From positions 1 through 24,863 of IMG/VR virus record IMGVR_UViG_3300025146_000064: a stretch of DNA of 24,863 nt; one strand, written 5' to 3'. Both the position numbers and the translations under genes were made by a program. Position 1 is the stretch's first letter; each line of letters opens with the position of its first letter. This DNA comes from a virus. Positions 12,292 to 24,519 of this stretch are shown here, one piece after another. Below the pieces are notes generated by a model that was not told the origin of the DNA, ran no database searches, and saw only the letters and a program-made list of their open reading frames with translations.

Positions 12292-13209
12292 GTGGCGCTC
12301 TCTTCACTCGCAATCAGCGCAGCACAGCTTGCGGCGCAGGCTCGCGGAGCACCGTGCTTCGTAGGTGCGAATGTGCTCCGCGGCTCGACAGCAGCGTGGC
12401 ATATCGGGGATCGATTCTCGGGCACGCAACTCGACTACCAAGATCTCGCGACGCACCAGACAAACTTCGCGATGAATCAATTTCCACATGTCGGGTCTCG
12501 ATGCCTGAGCGGTTACGCCGCGAGCTATTACTTCTACGCAACGCTTACAGCTGAAGCTGAAATTGACACGCTCGCGATCAATCTGCTGTACGCGCAACAA
12601 GTCCCGACGATCACGCTGTTCGTCGCCGACAACGCGACGATGACCGGGCGCGCGACTGTCGGATCGGTCACAGCTGTGCCGTCTCAATCGCGTGGTTTGT
12701 TACTCGCGGGCACACGGTATTCGGGCGTGACGCACGTGCAAGTGCAGCTAGACGTCACGCCAAGTAACGTCTCGCCAATCGTGGGCGAGATATTCGTCGG
12801 GCGCAGGCGGCAGCTTTCACGAAAGTTCTCCGCAGGCTTCGACGACTATCCGTTTGGGGCCGATATTGCAGACTTCGAACCACGCTCGCGAGAGAAGACA
12901 CGTTACGCGCTCGCAGAAGGCTACAGCGATTTCGCGGGATCGTATCCACTCGGCGCCGAGCACGAAACGCTAAACGACGAGATAGAGATTCGTAGTGCGT
13001 TCACTGCCGCGAATTACGGCACGTCGCTTGTGTGTTTCGTGCTCGACCCTTCGACGGCGACAGCGGCGTTCCCGCATCGCTATCATCTTGGCTATTGCAG
13101 CGACTCGTTGATCACACCGCAAGCGCACGGCGCGCACGGTCGCGAATGGAGCTTCAACTTCCGTGAGGTTCCTCCATTCTACGCGCACGCGGCGGGATAC
13201 GCACGATGA
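12292..13209 (+). CDS. Distal tail-like tip protein (copy 1)
   Basis: A 305-residue protein starting with GTG at 12292, with AGGAG about 10 nt upstream. It follows the tape measure and precedes the hub protein, the slot of distal tail/minor tail proteins. It is beta-rich with an N-terminal ligand-like region (about residues 20-165: AWHIGDRF, YYFYATLTAEAEIDTLAINL) and a second part with GEIFVGRRRQLSRKF, LNDEIEIRSAF, VCFVLDPSTA and WSFNFREVPP. The same landmarks recur in order in the gene at 20518-22176, so the two are paralogues. Exact family is not identified; a role as the baseplate ring linking tube to hub is inferred from position. The stop overlaps the next gene (ATGA). Confidence 0.65.
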   Translation: MALSSLAISAAQLAAQARGAPCFVGANVLRGSTAAWHIGDRFSGTQLDYQDLATHQTNFAMNQFPHVGSRCLSGYAASYYFYATLTAEAEIDTLAINLLYAQQVPTITLFVADNATMTGRATVGSVTAVPSQSRGLLLAGTRYSGVTHVQVQLDVTPSNVSPIVGEIFVGRRRQLSRKFSAGFDDYPFGADIADFEPRSREKTRYALAEGYSDFAGSYPLGAEHETLNDEIEIRSAFTAANYGTSLVCFVLDPSTATAAFPHRYHLGYCSDSLITPQAHGAHGREWSFNFREVPPFYAHAAGYAR

Positions 13210-15371
13210 CACTAAGCCCCACGCAGAATTGGATTGATGCGTTCTCGGTCGCCGATTGCGCACCGATCGTGCTCGTCGAGGTGAACGTCAACCGTCGGCT
13301 GTTTGTCAGCGTGGATGACTTCTCGATTGCGTCAAGCAACGAGATTCAGATCACCGTCAACGCGACGGTCTACACGTTTATTGCGGGCACGTCGTTTGTG
13401 ATTGGCGGTTCGAACGAATCGATGGCGACAAACGCCGCGAACGCGATCAACATCCACACAAGCAATTTATTCTCCGCGTGGGCGACTGGCGCCGTAATCG
13501 AAATCGTGGTCGCGAAACAGAGTGTCGGTGTGGATCTCGCGGCAACTGCGACTACAGGTGCGAGTGTCGCGGTCACGGGATCGTCAATGGCCGTACGCCC
13601 CGGATCGGCGCCGACAAGCTACAAATTCGTTTCGGGCTCGCGACCGTTCCTCAACGGCTCGAGTGTGTATCCCAATTCAATCGATCGCGTGGGCACGATC
13701 GGCGCGTCGATTGATCCAGTCTCGCGGAGCTATTCGGCGGGCGCGTTCGATATCACGTGGTTTGATGACGGGCGCCTTCGGGATCTCGTGCTCAAGTATC
13801 CACTACGCGGCAATAGCGTGAGCGTGTACCTCGGCACGTTGGAGTTGTCAGAGGCCAACTTCCTCAAGCTCACGACTCTGTACGTCAAGGATGTGACGCC
13901 CGTGCGCGGCGAGCGTAAGCTTCGCATGGAGCTCGAAGATGTAATGTGGACGATTGGTTCGCGGACGTGGAAAGGCGAAGTGATCTGCTTGCATCCACTT
14001 GAGGTGATCGCACATGTGCTCAGTCAAGTGCGCGCAGTCGCGGGCACTGATTATGATGCCACGACATTGACGCCACTATCAGCCTCGCCCGCAACTGCGC
14101 ATCACGTGCTGTCGCGTATGACGAGCGCCGAACCTCCAAGACCAGAGATTGATAACGCTGTCACCTCACCGATAGAAGTGCGCAGCCTTATCTCTGAGCT
14201 CTGTGTGCTAACCGGCGGAAGCTGGTACCCCAATGCTAACGGGTTGTACGGGCATCGCGCCTACGACGACACGACAGCGATCGCACGAACACTCGCGGCT
14301 GGCGCGCTCACAGGCCACGACTGTGAGCTTCTCGAAACGCCATCGACCGTTGAGAATACGATCAACGTCGTTACGATTACGTACGGTCACAACAAAACTC
14401 TTGGACCGATAGCTTTTGTTCTTGCCGACGACACCTCGATCAATCAATTCGGCGAACACCCCTACGATATCGAGACACGATGGCTCGCAGGGATTGGGAC
14501 GCTGGCGCTGTTCGAAACACTTTCAACCTACGCGACTGTCGCAGGCACAGTGCACGGAATTGCGGGCTGTGGTGGGTTGACGACAGGACCCGCGGGGCCG
14601 ATCGGCCCGACGGTCAATCAAGCCGCAGGCTATCAGCTCTCGACCTCGCGCCGTGCAATTCTGCATCTGTTCACGTTCTACGCGTCAAACATTGTGCAAG
14701 AGTACGTCGCTTGCCACGAGGCGCGAGCACGCGACACGATTAACGACACTTGGGACACGCCGTTTGACAACGCGCGGTACAACGTCGCAGCGCTGCGCAA
14801 AACGAGCGCGCATCTTCAGGCCCTCGACGCGCCCGTGCGCTACTATTTCGATTCGAACTACAACGAAGATGGATTTACAGCGGGACGTGAAGGCTTTGGC
14901 ACAAGTATACAATCAATGATCGGCCCGCCTGGGTTCTTCTCTTACGCGCTCGACGCAACGATTCCGTGGGAGATCGCGAAACGCATCCTACGCCGATTCA
15001 AATACGGCTGCCCGCGTGTTGTTGTACGTTGTTCGTTGCGCCACGTAGATCTTGAAATTGGTGATTTCGTCGCACTCTCAGGTGATGACACGATGCTTCG
15101 CTGGCGGCACGATGGTGCTGAGGCGACAACAAAATGGGAAATTACACGTCGAGATATTGAGCTGATTGGATCCACGCCACACGTCGAGATCGAGCTCGCA
15201 TTCGCGAAAGACTCGTGGGTGCCCGCGCTCTCGGTCGCGCCGACACCAGGTCTCGGACATCTCCCTTCAGGCCCGAGCTCTGAAGAATTGATTACCGATA
15301 ACGCGCTCGTGGACGTGTATATTGACTCAGACGGAGACGGGCTCGCTGACACTGGCGTGACGAGGATCTAA
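13206..15371 (+). CDS. Tail hub / tip attachment protein
   Basis: A 721-residue protein beginning at the ATGA overlap with the distal tail-like gene. It is beta-rich with a mid-part containing FDITWFDDGRLRDLVLKYPL (from about residue 179), RKLRMELEDVMWTIGSRTW and LEVIAHVLSQ, consistent with a tail-associated hub. Near residue 460 a short collagen-like run GPAGPIGPT occurs. The C-terminal domain includes RRFKYGCPRVVVRCSLRHVDLEIGD, resembling the hub part that follows a domain fold in other phages. The last 19 residues contain DSDGDGLADTG, matching the calcium-binding thrombospondin type 3/dockerin-like loop pattern DxDxDGxxD. The protein would contact the distal ring and carry the fibre. Confidence 0.65.
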   Translation: MTLSPTQNWIDAFSVADCAPIVLVEVNVNRRLFVSVDDFSIASSNEIQITVNATVYTFIAGTSFVIGGSNESMATNAANAINIHTSNLFSAWATGAVIEIVVAKQSVGVDLAATATTGASVAVTGSSMAVRPGSAPTSYKFVSGSRPFLNGSSVYPNSIDRVGTIGASIDPVSRSYSAGAFDITWFDDGRLRDLVLKYPLRGNSVSVYLGTLELSEANFLKLTTLYVKDVTPVRGERKLRMELEDVMWTIGSRTWKGEVICLHPLEVIAHVLSQVRAVAGTDYDATTLTPLSASPATAHHVLSRMTSAEPPRPEIDNAVTSPIEVRSLISELCVLTGGSWYPNANGLYGHRAYDDTTAIARTLAAGALTGHDCELLETPSTVENTINVVTITYGHNKTLGPIAFVLADDTSINQFGEHPYDIETRWLAGIGTLALFETLSTYATVAGTVHGIAGCGGLTTGPAGPIGPTVNQAAGYQLSTSRRAILHLFTFYASNIVQEYVACHEARARDTINDTWDTPFDNARYNVAALRKTSAHLQALDAPVRYYFDSNYNEDGFTAGREGFGTSIQSMIGPPGFFSYALDATIPWEIAKRILRRFKYGCPRVVVRCSLRHVDLEIGDFVALSGDDTMLRWRHDGAEATTKWEITRRDIELIGSTPHVEIELAFAKDSWVPALSVAPTPGLGHLPSGPSSEELITDNALVDVYIDSDGDGLADTGVTRI

Positions 15372-15374
15372 GCA

Positions 15375-18300
15375 GTGGTAGTTCACTCAACACTCACAGG
15401 CGCAGATCTCCACCCGCCAGCGGGCGCGTACACTGCGGGCGCGCTTACGCTCACGGACAATCAACCGAACGCGATGCTTTGGCGTGAGCCGTCAGCGTCG
15501 CGTGTCATCCTTCGATACACGACCACGACGAGCGCTCACAGCTGGACCTTCGGAAACACAACCGACGCACCTGACGTGACCTTCGCTGGGCTCACGTCTT
15601 CAGAGTTCAATCTCGACTCGAGCCACATTCTGCTTTGCGACGGCAACACAATTCCGGCCGTTGACGCGGGACTCTGGATCCAGCGCACGGCTTCACTGTT
15701 CCACGGAATCGTCTGGGACGAAAGCGCCGACGAATGGGTCGCCGCGTCGGTCACAGCAGAACCGTGGGGCACGTCCGATCTCACGCTCATTGCGCTTCCA
15801 TTCCGCTGTGCAGGTGCGTTCGCTAACTCGTTGACTCTCGCCGAGCAGGGCAGTGACGTGGCCACAGGCGCGAATGTTGGCGCGCTCTACACAAAGGATG
15901 ACGCAGGAACCACACACTTATTCTACCGCGCGAACTCAAACGGCACGGTCTATCAGCTCACGCCGCCAGGTACCGCGATAGACCACGGCGGTCTCACAGG
16001 TCTCGGCGACGACGACCACACACAATACGCGCTACTTGCTGGACGCGCTGGCGGTCAAACATTGATCGGCGGCACAGCAGCAGGAAACGATCTCTCCTTC
16101 GAGACCACGTCGCACGCTACAAAGGGTACGTTTATCTGGACGGGTGCGTGCGACTGGAGCGTCGGCGGCGGCGTCGGAAGCGCGGCGCAAGTGCTCACGT
16201 CGAATGGCGCGGGCGCGGCTCCTACGTGGCAGGCTGTTGCTGGCGGCGGAGGCACGCTCGACGCAGCTTATGACTACGGTGGCGCTGGCGCGGGGCGCAC
16301 GATCACAGCGGACACCGGCGCCGTACTTATCACTGACGCGACGGCTGCGCGCACTGCGTATCTGCTACATATCGACAATGGCGCGGCCACATTCACAGGC
16401 ACGCCTCACGGGATCTTGGTTGATTTCGTAAGCGCCACGCAAATCTCGAACGCTGGCAACGTGTACGGCGCGCGCTTCGAGGGCAAGTCGAACGATGGTG
16501 CGGGTATGACTGTCGGCATCTCACTTGATAGTGGCTGGGATATCGGAATCGAAATTGCGTCGGCTAATCACGCGATCAAGCTCGCTGACGGCGCTGTACT
16601 TGGATCCGTCACCGGGTTGACAGCAGTTACAGGCACGCTCGCAATTCTCACTGGAACATTTGCCGGGACCTACGCACCAAGCAACGGCAGCGTGCACATT
16701 GGCGACGACCTCGGCAACGCGAGCGCCACATCGCAAGGCACTGGTTGCGTTGTTATCGGTTCGCAGGGGGCCTACGCGCGGAACGCCGCGGACTACGCGA
16801 TCGCGATCGGCTACTCCGCGAACGCGGCTTCGAGCTCAATCGCAATTGGCCACGTCGCCACAGCCTCAGCGACGGAGTCGATTGCAATCGGAAACAGCAC
16901 TCCGACGGCCGCGGGCGCACGAAGCATCGCGTTCGGTCGTGGCGCGAACGTTGGAAGCTCAGGCACCGAATCGATCGGTATCGGCTACGGCGTTTCGACG
17001 AACAACGCCAACTGCGTCGTGTTGGGTCGCGGTGCGACTTCAACCGCGGCGAATCAATTCGTGCTTGGCTCTAACGGTTACGAGACGAGCCAGGTATTCT
17101 TCGGCGAGGGTGTTGTTGCTGCAACAGTACCGACTTCAATCTCAATCAATCCAACTGGAGCCAGCGGCACTGATATAGCGGGCGGCTGTACGTTCTACCT
17201 CAACGGTGCGCGTGGCACTGGAACCGGTGTCGGTGGTGATCTCGTATTTCAAACCGCACCTCCCGGCGGAACAGGAAGCACTCCAGGTACGCTTACTGAG
17301 CGACTGCGAATTGACGATAACGGCATTGTGACTTTCTCATCTACGGCGAGTGTTCGTCACAATGGGCTGACGCTTGAGCTGAATGCTGATGCTGATGCTG
17401 GTACGGCGGAAACAGTATCACTGGGTCTGTCGTCCGGTGATGGCGCAACGACTCTGCACAAACATGCTTGGCGTGTCGTCTCGACGAACTCGTCCGTGCT
17501 GAATTATGTGCATACCGAGAATGGTGCTGTTTCGGCCTCGACAAATTTGCGCTTGGGTGATGCGTCATCGACGGCGACACAGACGTGTAATATTTATCTG
17601 CACTCGTCGAACGGCACGAATAGGTACGTGCTGTTCGCGCTGAATTCGTCAAATTCGTTCACAGTATCTTCAGATCCAGTAACAGCGGCTGGATTGAAAT
17701 TCTTTCTCGCGTCTGGCGCTGCGACTGGAGACGTTCTTCTTGGTTTCGACGGCGACGTGACAGACACGTATCTCGGGATCGACGATTCGGACGCTGACGC
17801 GTTTCTGATCGGCACTGGGACTACAGTCGGGTCCAACGTGGTTGCACGTATAGCGACTGGCGCAAGTGATCGTGGGGCACTTACTTGGAATTTGCCGGAT
17901 AATTTTACAACAGCGTACGTGCTGCGTGAGAGCGCAAATACGTACTTCTCGATCAACACGACGAATAGCAGCGAGCTTGTGGCTTTGGGCGTCTCCGGTG
18001 TAGGCACCACGACCGTGCAGGGCCTGGCAGTAATTGTGAACGCAGTTGGCGGAGCCCTCAATCTCGGTAGCGTGAACACGACCAAACTGTCGCTAATCGT
18101 ACCGGACAACACGACCTCTGCTTTCGTGCTGACAGAAGGTGCCAACGAATATATCGAGCTCAAGACAACCAACACGGCCGAACGGCTGACGCTCGGCTTC
18201 AATCAGCAAATCGTGCTCGATGAAGCCGGCGACTGGATCTCGTTCAATTCGCTCGTCGGCGCGGCGATCGACCAAACGCTTTACTGCAAGACCGCGTCAC

Positions 18301-18620
18301 TCAACACAGCAAGCACGAGTCCTGCGATGCTTGCGTCTCTTGCGACAGCCAGCAACACGAGCGGTTGGGCTGAAGCGCGAGTTGCGTGCAGACAATCGAC
18401 GGACTCGGCCGCATACGTGATTCGCGTGAAGTGGGAGAACGCTGCGGGTACAGTCACGCTTGGAACGGTCGCGACAGATTGGAGCGATGAGGATGCAAGC
18501 ATTTCGGGCAATGCAGTGACGTTTGTCGCGAGCGGCGCCAACGTGACGGTACAAGTGACGCCCGCAAACGCGACTTCAATGAATTGGGTTGCGAGCTTTG
18601 ACTTGCAAGGAGTGGTGTAA
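15375..18620 (+). CDS. Long tail fibre with YadA-like and beta repeats
   Basis: A 1081-residue protein, the largest in the window, starting with GTG at 15375 with GAGG about 10 nt upstream. Near residue 204 it has HGGLTGLGDDDHTQYALLAG followed by QTLIGG, a well-known phage fibre motif that lies before trimeric shafts. Residues about 475-565 carry YadA/Hep_Hag-type head repeats (AIAIG, SIAIG, SIAIG, SIAFG, SIGIG at irregular 14-18 residue spacing). Residues 842-872 and 911-941 form a second repeat with DN-x-T-x-A-(Y/F)-VL and a TTN-x-x-E core. The last 80 residues are a separate beta-rich tip with WAEARVACRQ. It is probably the trimeric receptor-binding fibre. No chaperone or peptidase domain is seen. 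Confidence 0.8.
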   Translation: MVVHSTLTGADLHPPAGAYTAGALTLTDNQPNAMLWREPSASRVILRYTTTTSAHSWTFGNTTDAPDVTFAGLTSSEFNLDSSHILLCDGNTIPAVDAGLWIQRTASLFHGIVWDESADEWVAASVTAEPWGTSDLTLIALPFRCAGAFANSLTLAEQGSDVATGANVGALYTKDDAGTTHLFYRANSNGTVYQLTPPGTAIDHGGLTGLGDDDHTQYALLAGRAGGQTLIGGTAAGNDLSFETTSHATKGTFIWTGACDWSVGGGVGSAAQVLTSNGAGAAPTWQAVAGGGGTLDAAYDYGGAGAGRTITADTGAVLITDATAARTAYLLHIDNGAATFTGTPHGILVDFVSATQISNAGNVYGARFEGKSNDGAGMTVGISLDSGWDIGIEIASANHAIKLADGAVLGSVTGLTAVTGTLAILTGTFAGTYAPSNGSVHIGDDLGNASATSQGTGCVVIGSQGAYARNAADYAIAIGYSANAASSSIAIGHVATASATESIAIGNSTPTAAGARSIAFGRGANVGSSGTESIGIGYGVSTNNANCVVLGRGATSTAANQFVLGSNGYETSQVFFGEGVVAATVPTSISINPTGASGTDIAGGCTFYLNGARGTGTGVGGDLVFQTAPPGGTGSTPGTLTERLRIDDNGIVTFSSTASVRHNGLTLELNADADAGTAETVSLGLSSGDGATTLHKHAWRVVSTNSSVLNYVHTENGAVSASTNLRLGDASSTATQTCNIYLHSSNGTNRYVLFALNSSNSFTVSSDPVTAAGLKFFLASGAATGDVLLGFDGDVTDTYLGIDDSDADAFLIGTGTTVGSNVVARIATGASDRGALTWNLPDNFTTAYVLRESANTYFSINTTNSSELVALGVSGVGTTTVQGLAVIVNAVGGALNLGSVNTTKLSLIVPDNTTSAFVLTEGANEYIELKTTNTAERLTLGFNQQIVLDEAGDWISFNSLVGAAIDQTLYCKTASLNTASTSPAMLASLATASNTSGWAEARVACRQSTDSAAYVIRVKWENAAGTVTLGTVATDWSDEDASISGNAVTFVASGANVTVQVTPANATSMNWVASFDLQGVV
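16797..17072 (+). repeat. YadA/Hep_Hag-like coding repeats
   Basis: These are degenerate repeats within the fibre gene coding for units with a core S-I-A-I-G, spaced about 14-18 residues. The five clearest cores are AIAIG, SIAIG, SIAIG, SIAFG and SIGIG, followed by two weaker ones (CVVLG and FVLGS). The pattern is that of trimeric autotransporter head domains, which form left-handed beta rolls. At DNA level the units have diverged and are not simple tandem copies. Confidence 0.6.
17898..18197 (+). repeat. Two-copy 31-residue repeat in fibre
   Basis: Two copies (17898-17990 and 18105-18197) encode aligned segments of about 31 residues. Both begin DN(F/T)TT(A/S)A(Y/F)VL, continue through an E-x-AN-x-Y motif and end with a TTN motif and a LG. 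They are separated by a 38-residue Gly/Val/Asn-rich spacer. They are likely repeated strands of a beta-helical shaft. Confidence 0.6.
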
Positions 18621-18881
18621 ATGGCGACGAAACAGGTGAACGCGATTAGCCTAACGATTCGTTTCGAGGTTCCGATCGTGTACCCACTATCAGTGGCAGC
18701 GGCGATCGAATGGGAGGCGTCGGGCCTCAGCGAGATGGGTGGTCGGCACGCGTCATTGAGCGGATCGATTCCGAGCGGCTCGGTAACGATCGCGCAAATC
18801 ATCAGCGCGTTGAAGGCACAGCTACAGGCGCAGCTTGAAAACGAAGGCTCGGGCAATCACACTGTTGTGGATCGTGCGTAA
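18621..18881 (+). CDS. Small fibre-associated protein, unknown
   Basis: An 86-residue protein directly following the fibre stop (TAAATG) with AAGGAG upstream. The sequence has a beta-like N-terminal half (ISLTIRFEVPIVYPL) and a C-terminal helix AQIISALKAQLQAQLENEG with an Ala/Gln/Leu heptad pattern. It might be a small fibre-tip subunit or a fibre assembly factor; neither can be shown. There is no signal peptide. Strong ribosome site and tight spacing support a real gene. Confidence 0.6.
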   Translation: MATKQVNAISLTIRFEVPIVYPLSVAAAIEWEASGLSEMGGRHASLSGSIPSGSVTIAQIISALKAQLQAQLENEGSGNHTVVDRA

Positions 18882-18894
18882 AGGAGACGAATCA

Positions 18895-19551
18895 ATGAGA
18901 ACCTTGTTTGTCTGTCTAGCTTTCTCGCTGTGGCCTGCACTTGCGGTCGCCGCACTCCCGGGCTTACCTGTCGATCTCGGCGCACCGCAAAACTACGCGC
19001 GCGCCGGTCAGTGCACGGCGGGTCACGAGGTCTACGTTGCCACGCCAGGAACGAGCTACGTGCGCACGTCTACAGCGATCTCAGCAGACAACTGGAATCG
19101 TCCAATGCTCGTGCCGTTCGGTTCGCTCGTCAGTCTCACGTGCGACGCTGACGTGATCGCGTGTTGGGTGCAGGCTGAAGCGACAATCACTTCGACAACC
19201 GGCGTGCTCACCGACGCGGGATCTACGAGCGGCGAGACTGTCGGGATTGGCGGGTGCTTCAAGATTGAAGCCGGGAGCTATCGCGATCAAACACTCTGGC
19301 GTTCGGCGTCGATGCCGAGCACCGACTACGGTAACGCACACCGACAGCTCTCGACGCGTGACATCTCGTGCGATTCGACTGACGCAGAGACTTCAGCCGC
19401 AATCGACGGCTACCCGTGCGATGCAGCGTCAGACTGTTACTACACAGCGACGACGTGCACGAGCGCGAACGGTACGCCCGCTGGAAACTTCCTTGCGCTT
19501 CGCCCGGCAGCTGCGAGCGCGACTTCGTGTTGGTTCTGCCTGGAGCGCTAA
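18895..19551 (+). CDS. Cys-rich protein with Sec signal peptide
   Basis: A 218-residue protein. I use the ATG at 18895 because AAGGAG lies nine bases upstream; an earlier in-frame start at 18835 would add a non-signal segment and no better ribosome site. The N-terminus is a clear Sec-type signal: MRTLFVCLAFSLWPALAVAA, with a likely cut at AVA-A. The mature part holds ten cysteines, with a cluster in its second half (ISC, YPC, SDC, TTC, then SC and FC near the end), suggesting disulphide bonds formed in the periplasm. I do not recognise a domain. It sits in the tail-tip operon between the fibre and a LamG-like protein, and its stop overlaps the next start as TAATG. Possible roles include an exported adhesin or a superinfection factor; none is supported further. 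Confidence 0.7.
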   Translation: MRTLFVCLAFSLWPALAVAALPGLPVDLGAPQNYARAGQCTAGHEVYVATPGTSYVRTSTAISADNWNRPMLVPFGSLVSLTCDADVIACWVQAEATITSTTGVLTDAGSTSGETVGIGGCFKIEAGSYRDQTLWRSASMPSTDYGNAHRQLSTRDISCDSTDAETSAAIDGYPCDAASDCYYTATTCTSANGTPAGNFLALRPAAASATSCWFCLER

Positions 19552-20507
19552 TGAGACGCGTGTCTACAGCACTTGCAATCGCCTGTGTGACGGTCTTCGG
19601 GCTCGTGCAATTACCGGCATACTTTGAAGATCAACTTGCGCTTGCGTCGAATTCGCGTCTACGCGGTCACTCCTCACTTCCTAGTGCCCGTGGGGGCAGC
19701 GCTCAAAGCCATCGATCTGATGCGAGCGCGTCTGACACCGGGCCTCCCGATACCGGCATCAACATCTTCGAGAGCTTCACGTGGGACTATTCTTGGAGCG
19801 GTCATCAGGCCGCCATGGCACAGTGGATCTCGAGTTCACCCGACGGAGGTGTCACGCTCGCCGGTGTGGATGCGTCGGTGCCTGCCTCGATCGATCAATC
19901 AACAGCGGGCCTGACTGTGTCTGGCGGAATCGGCGAACACCGTGAAAACAAGGCCGTGGCCTACGGTGCCGGGACGGCGGGCTTCGTGAACGCGAGCTCT
20001 CTCACGTGGAGCAATGGAGACGACTGGCACGCGCGATTCCTGGTCAGCATGGCGGGAGTCACAAGCGGCAGTTACTTGCTCGAGTGCGCCGTTGGGTCCA
20101 CCGATTTTGCGCGGATCCAGATCACCGGAAGCACGTCGAAGACGGTGAATATTTACGTGCGTGACGATAACGACGGGACAAATTTCAACAAGAGCTCGGG
20201 CGTCTTCGCGAGCTCGGCCGGTTGGCAACTGATCGACCTGAGCTACTGTCACGATTGCGGTGCGGGTGGCTTTTCAGAAGCGAAGGTCTACGTCAACGGT
20301 GACGACCTGTCTCCAGCAGTGCATACCGCCGCGATCTCGTTTACTGGCGCGTGTGCTCTCGCCACATACGGACTCGGCGTCGGCTCCACCCGTTCTGGCA
20401 CGTCGGCGTATACTGGTACCAGTCGCGTATTGTTCGTTGGCGTGCGATTCGGTGCGGCGATGTCACTGGCGCAACACCAGGCGGACGCCGTGAGCGTGGG
20501 GCTGTAG
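19551..20507 (+). CDS. Signal-bearing LamG-like (ConA-fold) protein
   Basis: A 318-residue protein starting at the TAATG overlap at 19551; an earlier in-frame start at 19416 lies inside the preceding gene and gives an unlikely N-terminus. The first 25 residues (MRRVSTALAIACVTVFGLVQ) are a signal sequence or signal anchor without an obvious cleavage site. A Ser/Gly/Arg/Asp-rich linker follows (about residues 34-70). The rest is beta-rich with LamG/concanavalin-like features: WSNGDDWHARFLVSM, ARIQITGS, NIYVRDDNDG, WQLIDLSYC and KVYVNGDDLSP, in which a tyrosine strand precedes an NG turn, as in LamG. It could be a surface or virion lectin. The adjacent gene also ends in such a fold. Confidence 0.65.
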   Translation: MRRVSTALAIACVTVFGLVQLPAYFEDQLALASNSRLRGHSSLPSARGGSAQSHRSDASASDTGPPDTGINIFESFTWDYSWSGHQAAMAQWISSSPDGGVTLAGVDASVPASIDQSTAGLTVSGGIGEHRENKAVAYGAGTAGFVNASSLTWSNGDDWHARFLVSMAGVTSGSYLLECAVGSTDFARIQITGSTSKTVNIYVRDDNDGTNFNKSSGVFASSAGWQLIDLSYCHDCGAGGFSEAKVYVNGDDLSPAVHTAAISFTGACALATYGLGVGSTRSGTSAYTGTSRVLFVGVRFGAAMSLAQHQADAVSVGL

Positions 20508-20517
20508 CTGAAATCGA

Positions 20518-22176
20518 ATGGTTTATTCGAGCACACAACTCTCGACGGACGAGATCGCGGCTGAAGCGAGCGGCGAGCACTTGATCCTCGCGCACAACGT
20601 CATTCGTGACGCTTCAATGCGCGAGTGGCACGCTGTAGATCTCACGCTTGGCGTGCCGCTCGACGTGACTGATGCTGCGTATCCACAGCGTCACACCTAC
20701 GACGGCAAGCGATCCACGATTTCACGCCCCACAGACGAGACTACCAGTGTCTACTGGTTGTATTATCAGTGGACCGCCGGCGTCACGATCGACACGATTT
20801 ATATTTCACTCGGTGGCTGCGCCGCATCGCTAAGCGTGGTCGTAGAGATTGCGGACGACTTCAATCCGAGCACGAACCGAATCGCGATCTACTCGCAATC
20901 AACTGCGCTGTCCGGCGCAACAATCCTTGCGCTCGACCTCGACAACGACGCCGGAGGGCCGAGCAGTTTGCATCAACGATTCTCGAACGTGCAGGCCCTG
21001 CGTATCACCCTCACAAACACCGACGGATCGAACACGATTCCACAAGTGCGCCAAGTGTTCGCCGGCCGACGTCGCCAACTAAACGGTCGCGCGAGTATGC
21101 CGTGGGACGAAAAACCGTTTCGCTCGCATGTCGCCGAGACCGCAGGTAGCGGACGTCAGCTCGGAAGCTGGATCGAGCAAACGGGACTGCGCGTATTCGA
21201 TGGATCGTATCTGGCGGTCACTGGTTCGACGCGCTACCAGACGCTTGATGACGCGGTGACGATTCGCGCAATCGCGAGCGACTCGAAGCTCGGAACGCGC
21301 GCCGTGGTCTTTGTTGAGAATCCAGCAACTGCGCGCAACGCCGGATCACACGTCGCCTATCTCGGATTCTTCGACGCGGGTCTTGCGGCGCCGACGCACG
21401 GTCCATTCACGCGACGTGTTTCACTTGATTTTATCGAGCAGCCGCCAGGCCTCGAGCAAGATCCACCAACAGGAATCGTTGGCGATACGTTCGAGTTCGA
21501 CGGCTTCAACGAGTACTTATCAGTGGCACACGTGAGCGGGCAGCTCTTGTCTGGTGCGTTTACCGCGGCCTTCTGGACGTACACAACAGAAACCAACGCC
21601 AACGACCAGTTCGTCTCGAAAGAGAATGTGAGCGATCGCGGTTTCGCTATTAAACATGCGGCGTCATTTTGGGACCGGCTGCGCGTGCATATCGCAACGA
21701 GCGCATCCGACCAAGGAACCTACGGCGCGTGGAACGGCATACTTGCAAATCTAGTGTGGCAGCACTTCGTCGTCGTGTTCGATGGATCTCTGAGCGGCAA
21801 CGCGAATCGTCTGAAGGTGTTCCTCAATGGCGTGCTGCTTACCGCGGACGCGTACGTGGGTACGATTCCGGCGACGCTCTATCCTAGTGTCGCGCCAATT
21901 CGGTTTGGAGCTGGCGCTGGTGGTATAGGGGCACTAGACGGCAAGCTGCACAACGCAGCCGTGTTTAACGCCGCGCTCTCTGCCGCACAAGTTGCTGCGG
22001 TCTACAACTACCGGTCCAACGACTTGCGAGATCTCTCGTTCAGCGGATCGTTGATCTGCTATCCCGGACTGATTGATCCAGAAACCGCGTTTCCAACAAT
22101 CACGGATTACGCCGGGCTCAGCTCAGGTATAGCCGTGGATATGGAAGCGGCAGACATCACCGAGGATCGACCGTGA
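20518..22176 (+). CDS. Distal-tail paralogue fused to LamG domain (copy 2)
   Basis: A 552-residue protein starting at ATG 20518 with no clear Shine-Dalgarno site. Residues about 20-320 repeat the protein at 12292-13209 over its whole length: IDTIYISLGG matches IDTLAINL, VFAGRRRQLN matches IFVGRRRQLS, LDDAVTIRA matches LNDEIEIRS, VVFVENPATA matches VCFVLDPSTA and SLDFIEQPPG matches SFNFREVPP. A short Pro-rich linker (EQDPPTGIVGDTF) joins it to a LamG-like domain at about residues 325-525: FEFDGFNEYLSVAHVS, AFTAAFWTYT, WQHFVVVFDGS, RLKVFLNGVLL and KLHNAAVFNAALSAAQV. It is most likely a tail-tip receptor-binding subunit that docks through the duplicated ring domain. Confidence 0.75.
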   Translation: MVYSSTQLSTDEIAAEASGEHLILAHNVIRDASMREWHAVDLTLGVPLDVTDAAYPQRHTYDGKRSTISRPTDETTSVYWLYYQWTAGVTIDTIYISLGGCAASLSVVVEIADDFNPSTNRIAIYSQSTALSGATILALDLDNDAGGPSSLHQRFSNVQALRITLTNTDGSNTIPQVRQVFAGRRRQLNGRASMPWDEKPFRSHVAETAGSGRQLGSWIEQTGLRVFDGSYLAVTGSTRYQTLDDAVTIRAIASDSKLGTRAVVFVENPATARNAGSHVAYLGFFDAGLAAPTHGPFTRRVSLDFIEQPPGLEQDPPTGIVGDTFEFDGFNEYLSVAHVSGQLLSGAFTAAFWTYTTETNANDQFVSKENVSDRGFAIKHAASFWDRLRVHIATSASDQGTYGAWNGILANLVWQHFVVVFDGSLSGNANRLKVFLNGVLLTADAYVGTIPATLYPSVAPIRFGAGAGGIGALDGKLHNAAVFNAALSAAQVAAVYNYRSNDLRDLSFSGSLICYPGLIDPETAFPTITDYAGLSSGIAVDMEAADITEDRP

Positions 22177-22274
22177 CTGCAAGCTTGCGTCGCATTCGTG
22201 GATTCGCGCACACTGAGCCCGTGAATCACGTCGTCCGCGTCTTTCGCCTGACAAGGAAAAGCGACAGTGCGTGA
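22173..22274 (+). CDS. Possible 33-residue small ORF
   Basis: A GTG overlapping the previous stop (GTGA, 22173-22176) opens a 33-codon frame ending TGA at 22272-22274, which itself overlaps the next gene start. The product would be basic (RRIRGF, VRVFRLTRKS). It fills the otherwise unexplained 90-bp gap and uses the same overlap style as its neighbours. It could equally be untranslated spacer carrying the ribosome site of the next gene. Confidence 0.3.
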   Translation: MTASLRRIRGFAHTEPVNHVVRVFRLTRKSDSA

Positions 22275-22521
22275 CGATGAATCCAACGCGGTCGCGCTCG
22301 CTGAGATTCGGATGCGGCTCCAAAGCATCGACGAAAAACTCACGGCGTTAGGCGAAGACAAACGAGAGCTCTCGGCGCGACTCGACGGTGTAGACTCTGA
22401 AGTGCACGGTCTAAAACTTGAGCTCGCGCGCTTGAAAACGATTGGAATTTTCGCGGGACTCGGCGCCGTCGGTGGAGGCGGAGCTCTCGGCGCAATTTTG
22501 AAGCTACTCGCTGGCGGGTAG
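22267..22521 (+). CDS. XhlA-like coiled-coil membrane protein
   Basis: An 84-residue protein with GTG at 22267, preceded by AGGA. Residues about 8-55 are a heptad-type coiled coil (LAEIRMRLQSIDEKLTALG, then LDGVDSEVHGLKLELARL). Residues 58-82 are a Gly-rich membrane segment. This N-out coiled coil plus C-terminal membrane helix layout is that of XhlA-type proteins, which are encoded beside holins and help in host lysis. The protein could also be an i-spanin-like or antiholin component; the layout alone does not decide. It precedes a two-membrane-segment holin candidate by 14 nt. Confidence 0.6.
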   Translation: MRDDESNAVALAEIRMRLQSIDEKLTALGEDKRELSARLDGVDSEVHGLKLELARLKTIGIFAGLGAVGGGGALGAILKLLAGG

Positions 22522-22535
22522 CTAGGAGAAGAACA

Positions 22536-22724
22536 GTGCAGTTGATCAAACTTGAACCCCGAAAACAAAGCGTCGTACTCGCGATCCTTTCGCTCGTCGC
22601 GCTTGCCGCGCACATCGGCACGTCTCTCGTGTCAGGCTCAGCGATTGACTGGGGCACGACCGTCGTCGCTGCTGGTACTGCTCTAGCGGTTCTTGCTCGC
22701 GGCTCGCAGGCGCCGGGAGCGTGA
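22536..22724 (+). CDS. Holin candidate (class II-like)
   Basis: A 62-residue protein with GTG at 22536 and a good AGGAGA site. After a charged N-terminus (KLEPRK) come two hydrophobic segments: SVVLAILSLVALAAHIGTSL at about residues 12-31 and TTVVAAGTALAVLA at about 41-54. The size, charged ends and two membrane segments suit a class II holin, which permeabilises the inner membrane to release or activate the endolysin. The stop overlaps the next start as GTGA. No endolysin gene follows in the window, so the call rests on layout. Confidence 0.55.
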   Translation: MQLIKLEPRKQSVVLAILSLVALAAHIGTSLVSGSAIDWGTTVVAAGTALAVLARGSQAPGA

Positions 22725-22978: not shown

Positions 22979-23347
22979 ATGACACGCGCTGAGATTCTGA
23001 TGTTTCTCCGCACCAAAGCCGACGCGCTTGGTCTTCGCGATTGGACCATCGAGCTCTCAGACATGCCAGCGGACCCGGAACACGAAGCCGATATCGACTT
23101 CGACGAACACAAACGAACGGCTGTCTTGCGTGTCTGTTCGGGCTTCAGCGATTTAACGCTAACAGAGCAGCGCGGACTGCTTGTGCACGAACTTGCGCAT
23201 CTGGTTCTTGATCCGATCGACGCTGTGATCGATCAAGCGTGCGAAGCTATGCGAAGCGCCGAAGCTCGGAAGATGCTTCGCACAGCTTACGACGCAGCAA
23301 ACGAGCGTGTCGCGTGGGCCTTGGCGCGTGCGGTTGTGGGGATCTGA
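22979..23347 (+). CDS. Small zinc metallopeptidase (HELAH)
   Basis: A 122-residue protein with GGAGG seven bases upstream of ATG 22979. The key motif is LLVHELAHLVLDP, giving a zincin HExxH with His70, Glu71 and His74 as predicted zinc ligands and catalytic residue. The upstream segment DWTIELSDMP and the strand RTAVLRVCSG are like phage-encoded short metallopeptidases of unknown target. The third ligand is not evident; Glu in the C-terminal helix NERVAWALARA is one possibility. It ends with a TGATG overlap to the metallophosphoesterase gene. It might process a virion or host protein, but no lysis enzyme signature is present. Confidence 0.7.
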   Translation: MTRAEILMFLRTKADALGLRDWTIELSDMPADPEHEADIDFDEHKRTAVLRVCSGFSDLTLTEQRGLLVHELAHLVLDPIDAVIDQACEAMRSAEARKMLRTAYDAANERVAWALARAVVGI

Positions 23348-24519
23348 TGGCAAAACCAGCACGATCCAAGGCACCCACAACCAAAACACGTCGTTGCGCG
23401 CGCTGCCGCAAAGACTTGCCGGTGTCAGATTTTCGCCCTGACACAAACAACACTGTGTCAGGACTGAAATCGTGGTGCCGCGTATGCTTCGCCGAAGACA
23501 ATAAACTACGCCGTGCAAAACGTCGAGCAGCGCGGCTCGTGTTGAGCGTTGAACAGTTGCAGCAGAACGACTCCACAGCGCGGCTCTTGAAGCTCACGCG
23601 CCAAGGACCGATTACAGTTGAGACTGCATGTAATGCGCTTGATCTATCGCCGAACCGAGTGCGTTTCTTAATCACGCAACTTCGGCGCTCTGGCGTACAA
23701 GTTGACGTCGAGCACGATCATATCGGCGTGCAGCTGGAAACGTGCGTCGAAAAGGTGCAGGCGATCAAGGTCGCGCCAACAACTTCAGGGCGCGCAAGGA
23801 TCGCAGTTATCAGTGACACGCATCTTGGATCCAAGTACTGCTTGCGTGCACAGCTCGCCGAATTCATACACTACGCCTACGCTCAAGGCGTGCGCGAAGT
23901 GCTGCACGCGGGTGACGTGATCGACGGCGACTATGCGCATGCGCGTTTCGAGATGTCACACGTTGGCCTCGAGGATCAACTTCGAGATCTGCACGAGACT
24001 TTGCCGCAGCTGCCAGGGCTCACCTATCACGCGATCGCGGGCAATCATGATTTCACGTTCACGGAGCGGAGCGGGATCAATACAGGCCGATCAATCTCCC
24101 GTTACTTTCGCGATCACGGACGCGACGATTTCACCAGTTACGGCGATCGCAGCGCGTTCGTGCGCATTCACGGCGCGCTCGTGCATCTCTGGCACCCTCG
24201 AGCAGGTGGAGCCTACGCGCGAAGCTATCACCTTCAGAAACGCGTGGAGGCTTACGCTGGCGGCGAGAAACCGCAGATCCTTCTTGCCGGGCATTGGCAC
24301 ATGTTCTGTCACGTCTTTGAGCGCGGCATTCACGCGATTGCGTGCCCGACGTTCCAGGGTGGAGGATCCGCATTCTCGAAATCGCTTGGCGGCTCGCCCG
24401 CAATCGGCGGTTTGATTCTATCGTGGGAGCTGACACGAGACAGCACCATGCGCGCCTTCTCGATTGAGTCGCGCAATTACTTCGAGCGCGAGGGCGTCGC
24501 AGCCGTTGCTACACGTTAG
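23347..24519 (+). CDS. Zn-ribbon + HTH + metallophosphoesterase fusion
   Basis: A 390-residue protein starting at the TGATG overlap (23347). Three parts can be seen. Residues 17-47 have CARC and CRVC, a zinc ribbon like those in HNH and phage DNA-binding proteins. Residues about 75-120 have LTRQGPITVETACNALDLS and NRVRFLITQLRRSGVQV, a winged helix-turn-helix. Residues about 150-370 are a calcineurin-like metallophosphoesterase with D157-T-H159, GDVID at 189, GNHD at 232-235, and GHWH at 315-318, so the metal-binding set appears complete. The Mre11/SbcD-like order suggests DNA or nucleotide hydrolysis, targeted by the N-terminal DNA-binding parts. Function in the phage is not known. Confidence 0.8.
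   Translation: MAKPARSKAPTTKTRRCARCRKDLPVSDFRPDTNNTVSGLKSWCRVCFAEDNKLRRAKRRAARLVLSVEQLQQNDSTARLLKLTRQGPITVETACNALDLSPNRVRFLITQLRRSGVQVDVEHDHIGVQLETCVEKVQAIKVAPTTSGRARIAVISDTHLGSKYCLRAQLAEFIHYAYAQGVREVLHAGDVIDGDYAHARFEMSHVGLEDQLRDLHETLPQLPGLTYHAIAGNHDFTFTERSGINTGRSISRYFRDHGRDDFTSYGDRSAFVRIHGALVHLWHPRAGGAYARSYHLQKRVEAYAGGEKPQILLAGHWHMFCHVFERGIHAIACPTFQGGGSAFSKSLGGSPAIGGLILSWELTRDSTMRAFSIESRNYFEREGVAAVATR

Follow-up and report, generated by a model that had tools for sequence, protein, structure and literature searches.

Two adjacent genes at positions 18895-20507 of a phage fragment encode proteins whose N-termini resemble Sec-type signals, and both lie among genes of the tail. The question raised by this locus is whether the two products leave the cytoplasm of the infected cell, and what they would do there, or whether they belong to the virion or to the lysis programme.

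Genomic context

The window, by which we mean the whole 24.9 kb stretch analysed (an environmental viral record of IMG/VR), is a fragment of a tailed phage with approximately 28 genes and a GC content of 58.7%. Family matches identified head morphogenesis, portal, protease, and major capsid proteins. The head genes are followed by a tape-measure-sized gene, two tail protein genes, and a tail-fibre-like gene (Table 1), the tape-measure, tail, and fibre labels resting mostly on gene order and size. Downstream of the fibre gene, an 86-aa gene precedes the pair, which is followed by the gene of a 552-aa protein and by two small, probably holin-type genes, the first XhlA-like by a weak match and the second encoding a membrane protein. 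The pair had been placed in the tail-fibre region in an earlier note, and this placement holds: it occupies a late tail operon, between fibre-block genes and presumed lysis genes. The relatives of the capsid protein, examined as a guide to the host, are all distant and come from mixed proteobacteria and from a Nostoc bin.

The 552-aa protein is a paralogue of the product of 12292-13209 (31-34% identity); the tail protein appears to have been duplicated, with the second copy acquiring a Laminin_G_3 domain relative to the first. Toward the ends of the window, a lipoprotein-like reading frame on the minus strand (1-156), which begins MKRVVCSVLLVACADP, runs off the window end, and a single reading frame at 23239-24519 joins an endonuclease-VII-like N-terminal part to a calcineurin-like phosphoesterase part.

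Table 1. Features at and around the gene pair, in window coordinates
Feature	Position	Strand	Remarks
Tail protein	12292-13209		Label mostly from gene order and size
Tail protein	13206-15371		Label mostly from gene order and size
Tail-fibre-like protein, 1081 aa	15375..18620	+	C-terminal ~860 residues 80% identical to L070 fibre
86-aa protein, upstream of the pair, travels with the fibre	18621..18881	+	53% identical homologue behind L070 fibre
Shine-Dalgarno of first gene, GGAG within AAAGGAGA	18883..18886	+	Read from sequence
First gene: 218-aa protein, Sec-type signal, ten mature cysteines, no known family	18895..19551	+	
Predicted cleavable signal of first protein, residues 1-19, cut between AVA and A	18895..18951	+	Cut site by inspection
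Shine-Dalgarno of second gene, GGAG, within the 3' end of the first gene	19542..19545	+	Read from sequence
Second gene: 318-aa protein, N-terminal signal or anchor, no known family	19551..20507	+	
Predicted signal or membrane anchor of second protein, residues 1-23	19551..19619	+	
Virion-type protein, 552 aa, no signal, Laminin_G_3 domain	20518..22176	+	Pfam E 9.7e-15
Two small proteins, probably holin-type	22267..22724	+	Weak family matches only

The two genes

Both genes are real. In codon usage, the annotated frames scored 0.103 (first gene) and 0.039 (second gene), all other frames lying between -0.026 and 0.024, and each start is preceded by a GGAG, located 8 nt upstream of the ATG at 18895 and 5 nt upstream of the ATG of the second gene. 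An upstream TTG start for the first gene, at 18835, was rejected because the strong ribosome-binding site belongs to the ATG at 18895. The stop of the first gene and the start of the second share one base (19551), forming the TAATG overlap described in the earlier note. Only 13 bases separate the pair from its upstream neighbour and 10 bases from its downstream neighbour, and no private promoter or terminator was found at the pair. These spacings argue for late co-transcription with the neighbouring genes, which, like the export of the products, we infer from sequence.

Signal-like N-termini

The first protein begins MRTLFVCLAFSLWPALAVAALPG, and the second begins MRRVSTALAIACVTVFGLVQLPAYFED. 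Signals were called by a simple rule-based Sec-signal test, not by SignalP; as a control, the rule recognised 10 of 10 known signals, which were typed from general knowledge. Among the genes called in the window, these two alone passed; the 62-aa membrane protein at 22536 is accepted only if every start codon is considered. The rule accepts about 1.6% of shuffled N-termini overall, and the observed strength was reached in 0.2-1.0% of shuffled N-termini of the same composition for the first protein, and in 0.3-1.4% for the second. Since shuffles rarely match the observed strength, two adjacent chance signals are unlikely.

The textbook signal and cut site that had been ascribed to the first protein were recovered by this test, with an n-region of MR, a hydrophobic core starting at residue 3, and a predicted cut near residue 19. 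The N-terminus of the second protein, earlier described as a signal or an anchor, passed likewise; an alternative cleavage is predicted after residue 32 (ALA, before S), and the segment may be either a cleaved signal or an uncleaved anchor, as both fit. From the annotated starts, neither protein has a lipobox, which the rule does find in Lpp, Rz1, and N15 Cor, and the only hydrophobic segment in each protein is the N-terminal one. A signal-like N-terminus is nevertheless no proof of export. The rule also accepts short proteins beside the capsid gene, as well as a tail protein J homologue in locus L057 (5243-8113, minus strand; PHROG E 7e-189), of which the first 22 residues are Sec-signal-like and the PHROG profile match begins at residue 23.

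Other signal-like N-termini were observed in the compared loci. A 635-aa protein without a family match, encoded within a tail gene cluster (L055, 5418-7325), carries one, and a Sec signal is combined with a PEP-CTERM motif (PF07589) in a protein encoded on a viral contig whose capsid protein is related (L047, 11717-12424; the same in L048), which is possibly a phage-borne exosortase substrate.

Cysteines, domains, and homologues

The first protein contains 11 cysteines. C7 lies inside the signal, leaving an even number, the ten cysteines of the earlier description, after cleavage; cysteine accounts for 10 of the 198 mature residues, versus 0.9% in the other window genes (binomial P ~1e-5). 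The second protein has four cysteines outside its signal, and a Ser/Ala/Gly-rich linker that connects the N-terminal segment to the C-terminal region. This region is LamG-like by weak resemblance only. Laminin_G_3 (PF13385) gave no Pfam match to it up to E 10, whereas the downstream neighbour, used as a positive control, matched at 1e-14, and a collinear single-sequence hhalign alignment of the second protein with the LamG domain of that neighbour was not significant (P 0.22). The label "LamG-like" given to the second protein in the earlier note is therefore not sustained, and the clear LamG domain is that of the next gene.

No significant family match was found for either protein in Pfam, PHROGs, NCBIfam, or PADLOC. 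The PHROG search was empty at E up to 1, and the domains listed to E 10 were chance-level matches; the PHROG result weighs only weakly against a place in the virion, as many tail proteins of the same phage are also without a PHROG match. PADLOC gave no match to a defence system, the spanin families gave none, and neither protein matched Ail_Lom (PF06316), to which lambda Lom, the positive control, matched at 1.1e-53. Structure prediction and a search for the pair in other phages, both proposed earlier as checks, did not place the proteins either: AlphaFold2 models made without an alignment were too poor to use (pLDDT 38 for the first protein, mean pLDDT 36 for the second), and no homologue of either protein was detected. 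Nothing significant was found for either protein in viral contigs, phage records, solved structures, and a set of comparison loci, for the first protein in bacterial genomes and 15 related viral records, or for the second in plasmids and in phage L070. Contigs L003-L005, which are near-identical and come from the same phage, end before position 18895.

A variable slot behind the fibre block

Phage L070 has a GC content of only 36%, compared with 58.7% in the window, and the fibres of the two are 80% identical in amino acids over the C-terminal ~860 residues, and 81% identical in DNA over 1.4 kb. Its counterpart of the 86-aa gene (53% identity) has the same place behind the fibre, and is followed by the gene of a small protein that belongs to a known PHROG, and by further genes, none of them with a signal. 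A fibre block (15375-18881 in the window, 8001-12322 in L070) thus appears to have been exchanged between phages of very different composition, and since the genes that follow differ, this block moves between phages without the pair. In L013 (IMGVR_UViG_3300032770_000034), whose capsid protein is 43% identical to that of the window, the stretch between the fibre and holin-like genes is occupied by a different pair, with which the window pair shares no detected sequence similarity. The design and the location are alike: two adjacent genes with Sec-like signals overlap (as GTGA) in the interval that separates the tail fibre from holin-like genes. No such signal-bearing pair was seen at the corresponding place in L012, whose capsid protein is 41% identical. 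On the contents of these three phages, the position is most readily understood as an accessory slot of variable content, which would sometimes hold exported proteins.

Known exported genes beside tail genes

The earlier note took exported proteins to be foreign to the tail-gene region, and this premise is wrong. The lambda lom gene is located between J and the side-tail-fibre gene, and N15 cor between the tail-tip-fibre and tail-fibre genes; when the Sec rule was applied to the late regions of lambda and N15, lom and cor were marked, and no other tested gene was. The llp gene of T5 adjoins the gene of the receptor-binding protein (PMC9586334), and the superinfection-exclusion lipoprotein genes of the mEp phages sit within the structural cluster (PMC11893012). 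An "undescribed system", as the locus had been called, is accordingly too strong a term. N15 gp22/gp23 occupy the slot as well and overlap as TAATG, but they have no signals and were not used as a precedent for export.

The likeness to these systems is one of place and export, and not of family. Lom shares the Sec signal and the late-operon position between tail-tip and tail-fibre genes, but it is an outer-membrane beta-barrel that matches PF06316 (1e-53), as neither protein of the pair does, and it is encoded by a single gene rather than by an overlapping pair. The gene of Cor (N15 and related phages) holds a comparable position and its product is exported, but Cor, a lipobox-bearing lipoprotein, has only 78 residues, against 218 and 318 for the products here, which lack a lipobox. 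T5 Llp is likewise exported, encoded next to the receptor-binding-protein gene, and disulfide-containing (PMC9586334), but it is a small periplasmic lipoprotein that jams FhuA, and the pair matches it in neither size nor lipobox. The mEp (immI) proteins are also exported, and their genes belong to the structural cluster (PMC11893012), but these proteins are lipoproteins that were tested for exclusion, whereas the pair lacks a lipobox. By the family and lipobox tests, the pair falls outside the Lom, Cor, Llp, and mEp groups; judged by where it lies, by its signals, and by its presumed late expression, it would work most like them.

Alternative explanations

The main rival to export is that both products are made in the cytoplasm as virion proteins, associated with the tail tip or fibre, with hydrophobic N-termini whose purpose would be assembly or contact with a membrane, and not Sec export. 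The place of the pair, between the fibre-block genes and the LamG-bearing tail-protein paralogue, fits this reading, and a lectin-like domain, which the second protein may carry, would suit it as well. Signal-like N-termini do occur on virion proteins, as in the tail protein J homologue of L057 and in Porphyromonas phages, where signals were predicted not only for genes of no known function but even for major capsid proteins (PMC10367356). However, ten cysteines behind a textbook signal and cut site are better suited to an oxidising compartment, the two signal-bearing genes are adjacent while the neighbouring tail genes all lack signals, and neither protein matches a tail family; a virion role is thus considered unlikely, though it has to be taken seriously. 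That the hydrophobic N-termini arose by chance and have no targeting function is very improbable: the rule does pass some shuffled N-termini (~1.6%), but the observed strengths are reached in only ~0.2-1.4% of shuffles per protein, and the genes stand side by side.

Two further readings accept export but assign it another purpose. Known spanins carry signals, and the pair, presumably late, lies 1.8 kb upstream of the first holin-like gene, so that spanin-like proteins or helpers of a holin or endolysin, rather than surface modifiers, may be envisaged; lom has also been co-transferred with a holin gene (PMC9836094). Against a part in lysis stand the missing lipobox, the lack of a second hydrophobic segment and of any lysis family match, and the virion-type gene between the pair and the holin-like genes, which together make it improbable. 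The pair might instead act in lysogenic conversion, as an adhesin or surface coat that benefits the lysogen and is not directed against other phages. Lambda lom, which is strongly expressed in the lytic cycle, has been described as such a conversion gene (PMC9836094), and the second protein may be glycan-binding, but no lysogeny gene was recognised among the fragment genes examined, and no private promoter was found at the pair; this, too, would be a long shot.

Proposed role and implications

The best explanation, to which we give a probability of about 0.5, is an accessory pair exported to the envelope from a variable slot, changing the cell surface or receptor late in infection. The pair would be a moron-like insertion that separates the tail-fibre block from the tail and presumed lysis genes that come next; its two genes would be co-transcribed with the late genes, and their translation would be coupled. 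The first product would pass through Sec, be cut near residue 19, and adopt a disulfide-rich fold in the periplasm or beyond, while the second would either stay in the inner membrane through its N-terminus or be cleaved, with its linker and C-terminal domain exposed to the envelope. Adsorption or injection by sister phages and by progeny would be prevented through this change of the infected cell's surface or receptor.

The claim of export made in the earlier note stands as the best reading of both N-termini and of the cysteines of the first protein; the surface role that went with it is drawn by analogy. Receptor masking and a superinfection block are plausible on the same analogy, and the pair perhaps blocks re-adsorption or superinfection, but a receptor role, taken by itself, is put forward tentatively and judged somewhat unlikely. 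Against the best explanation, the pair has no homologue, functional family, or usable model, and no link to a receptor. A bolder version, which we regard as quite unlikely, is a two-component exported surface system produced late, in which a disulfide-rich periplasmic or secreted protein and a membrane-tethered glycan-binding protein act together to mask or remodel the receptor of the phage's own fibre, encoded in a slot that recurs in this phage group and is filled by unrelated pairs of the same design.

What is new here is confined to the protein families and to their design as a coupled pair. If the two proteins are exported late, they would bring previously unseen protein families, and an uncultured group of phages, into the pattern of lom, cor, and llp, in which modification of the host surface is encoded beside the adsorption genes, and their place beside an exchangeable fibre block predicts that the pair matches the receptor used by that phage.
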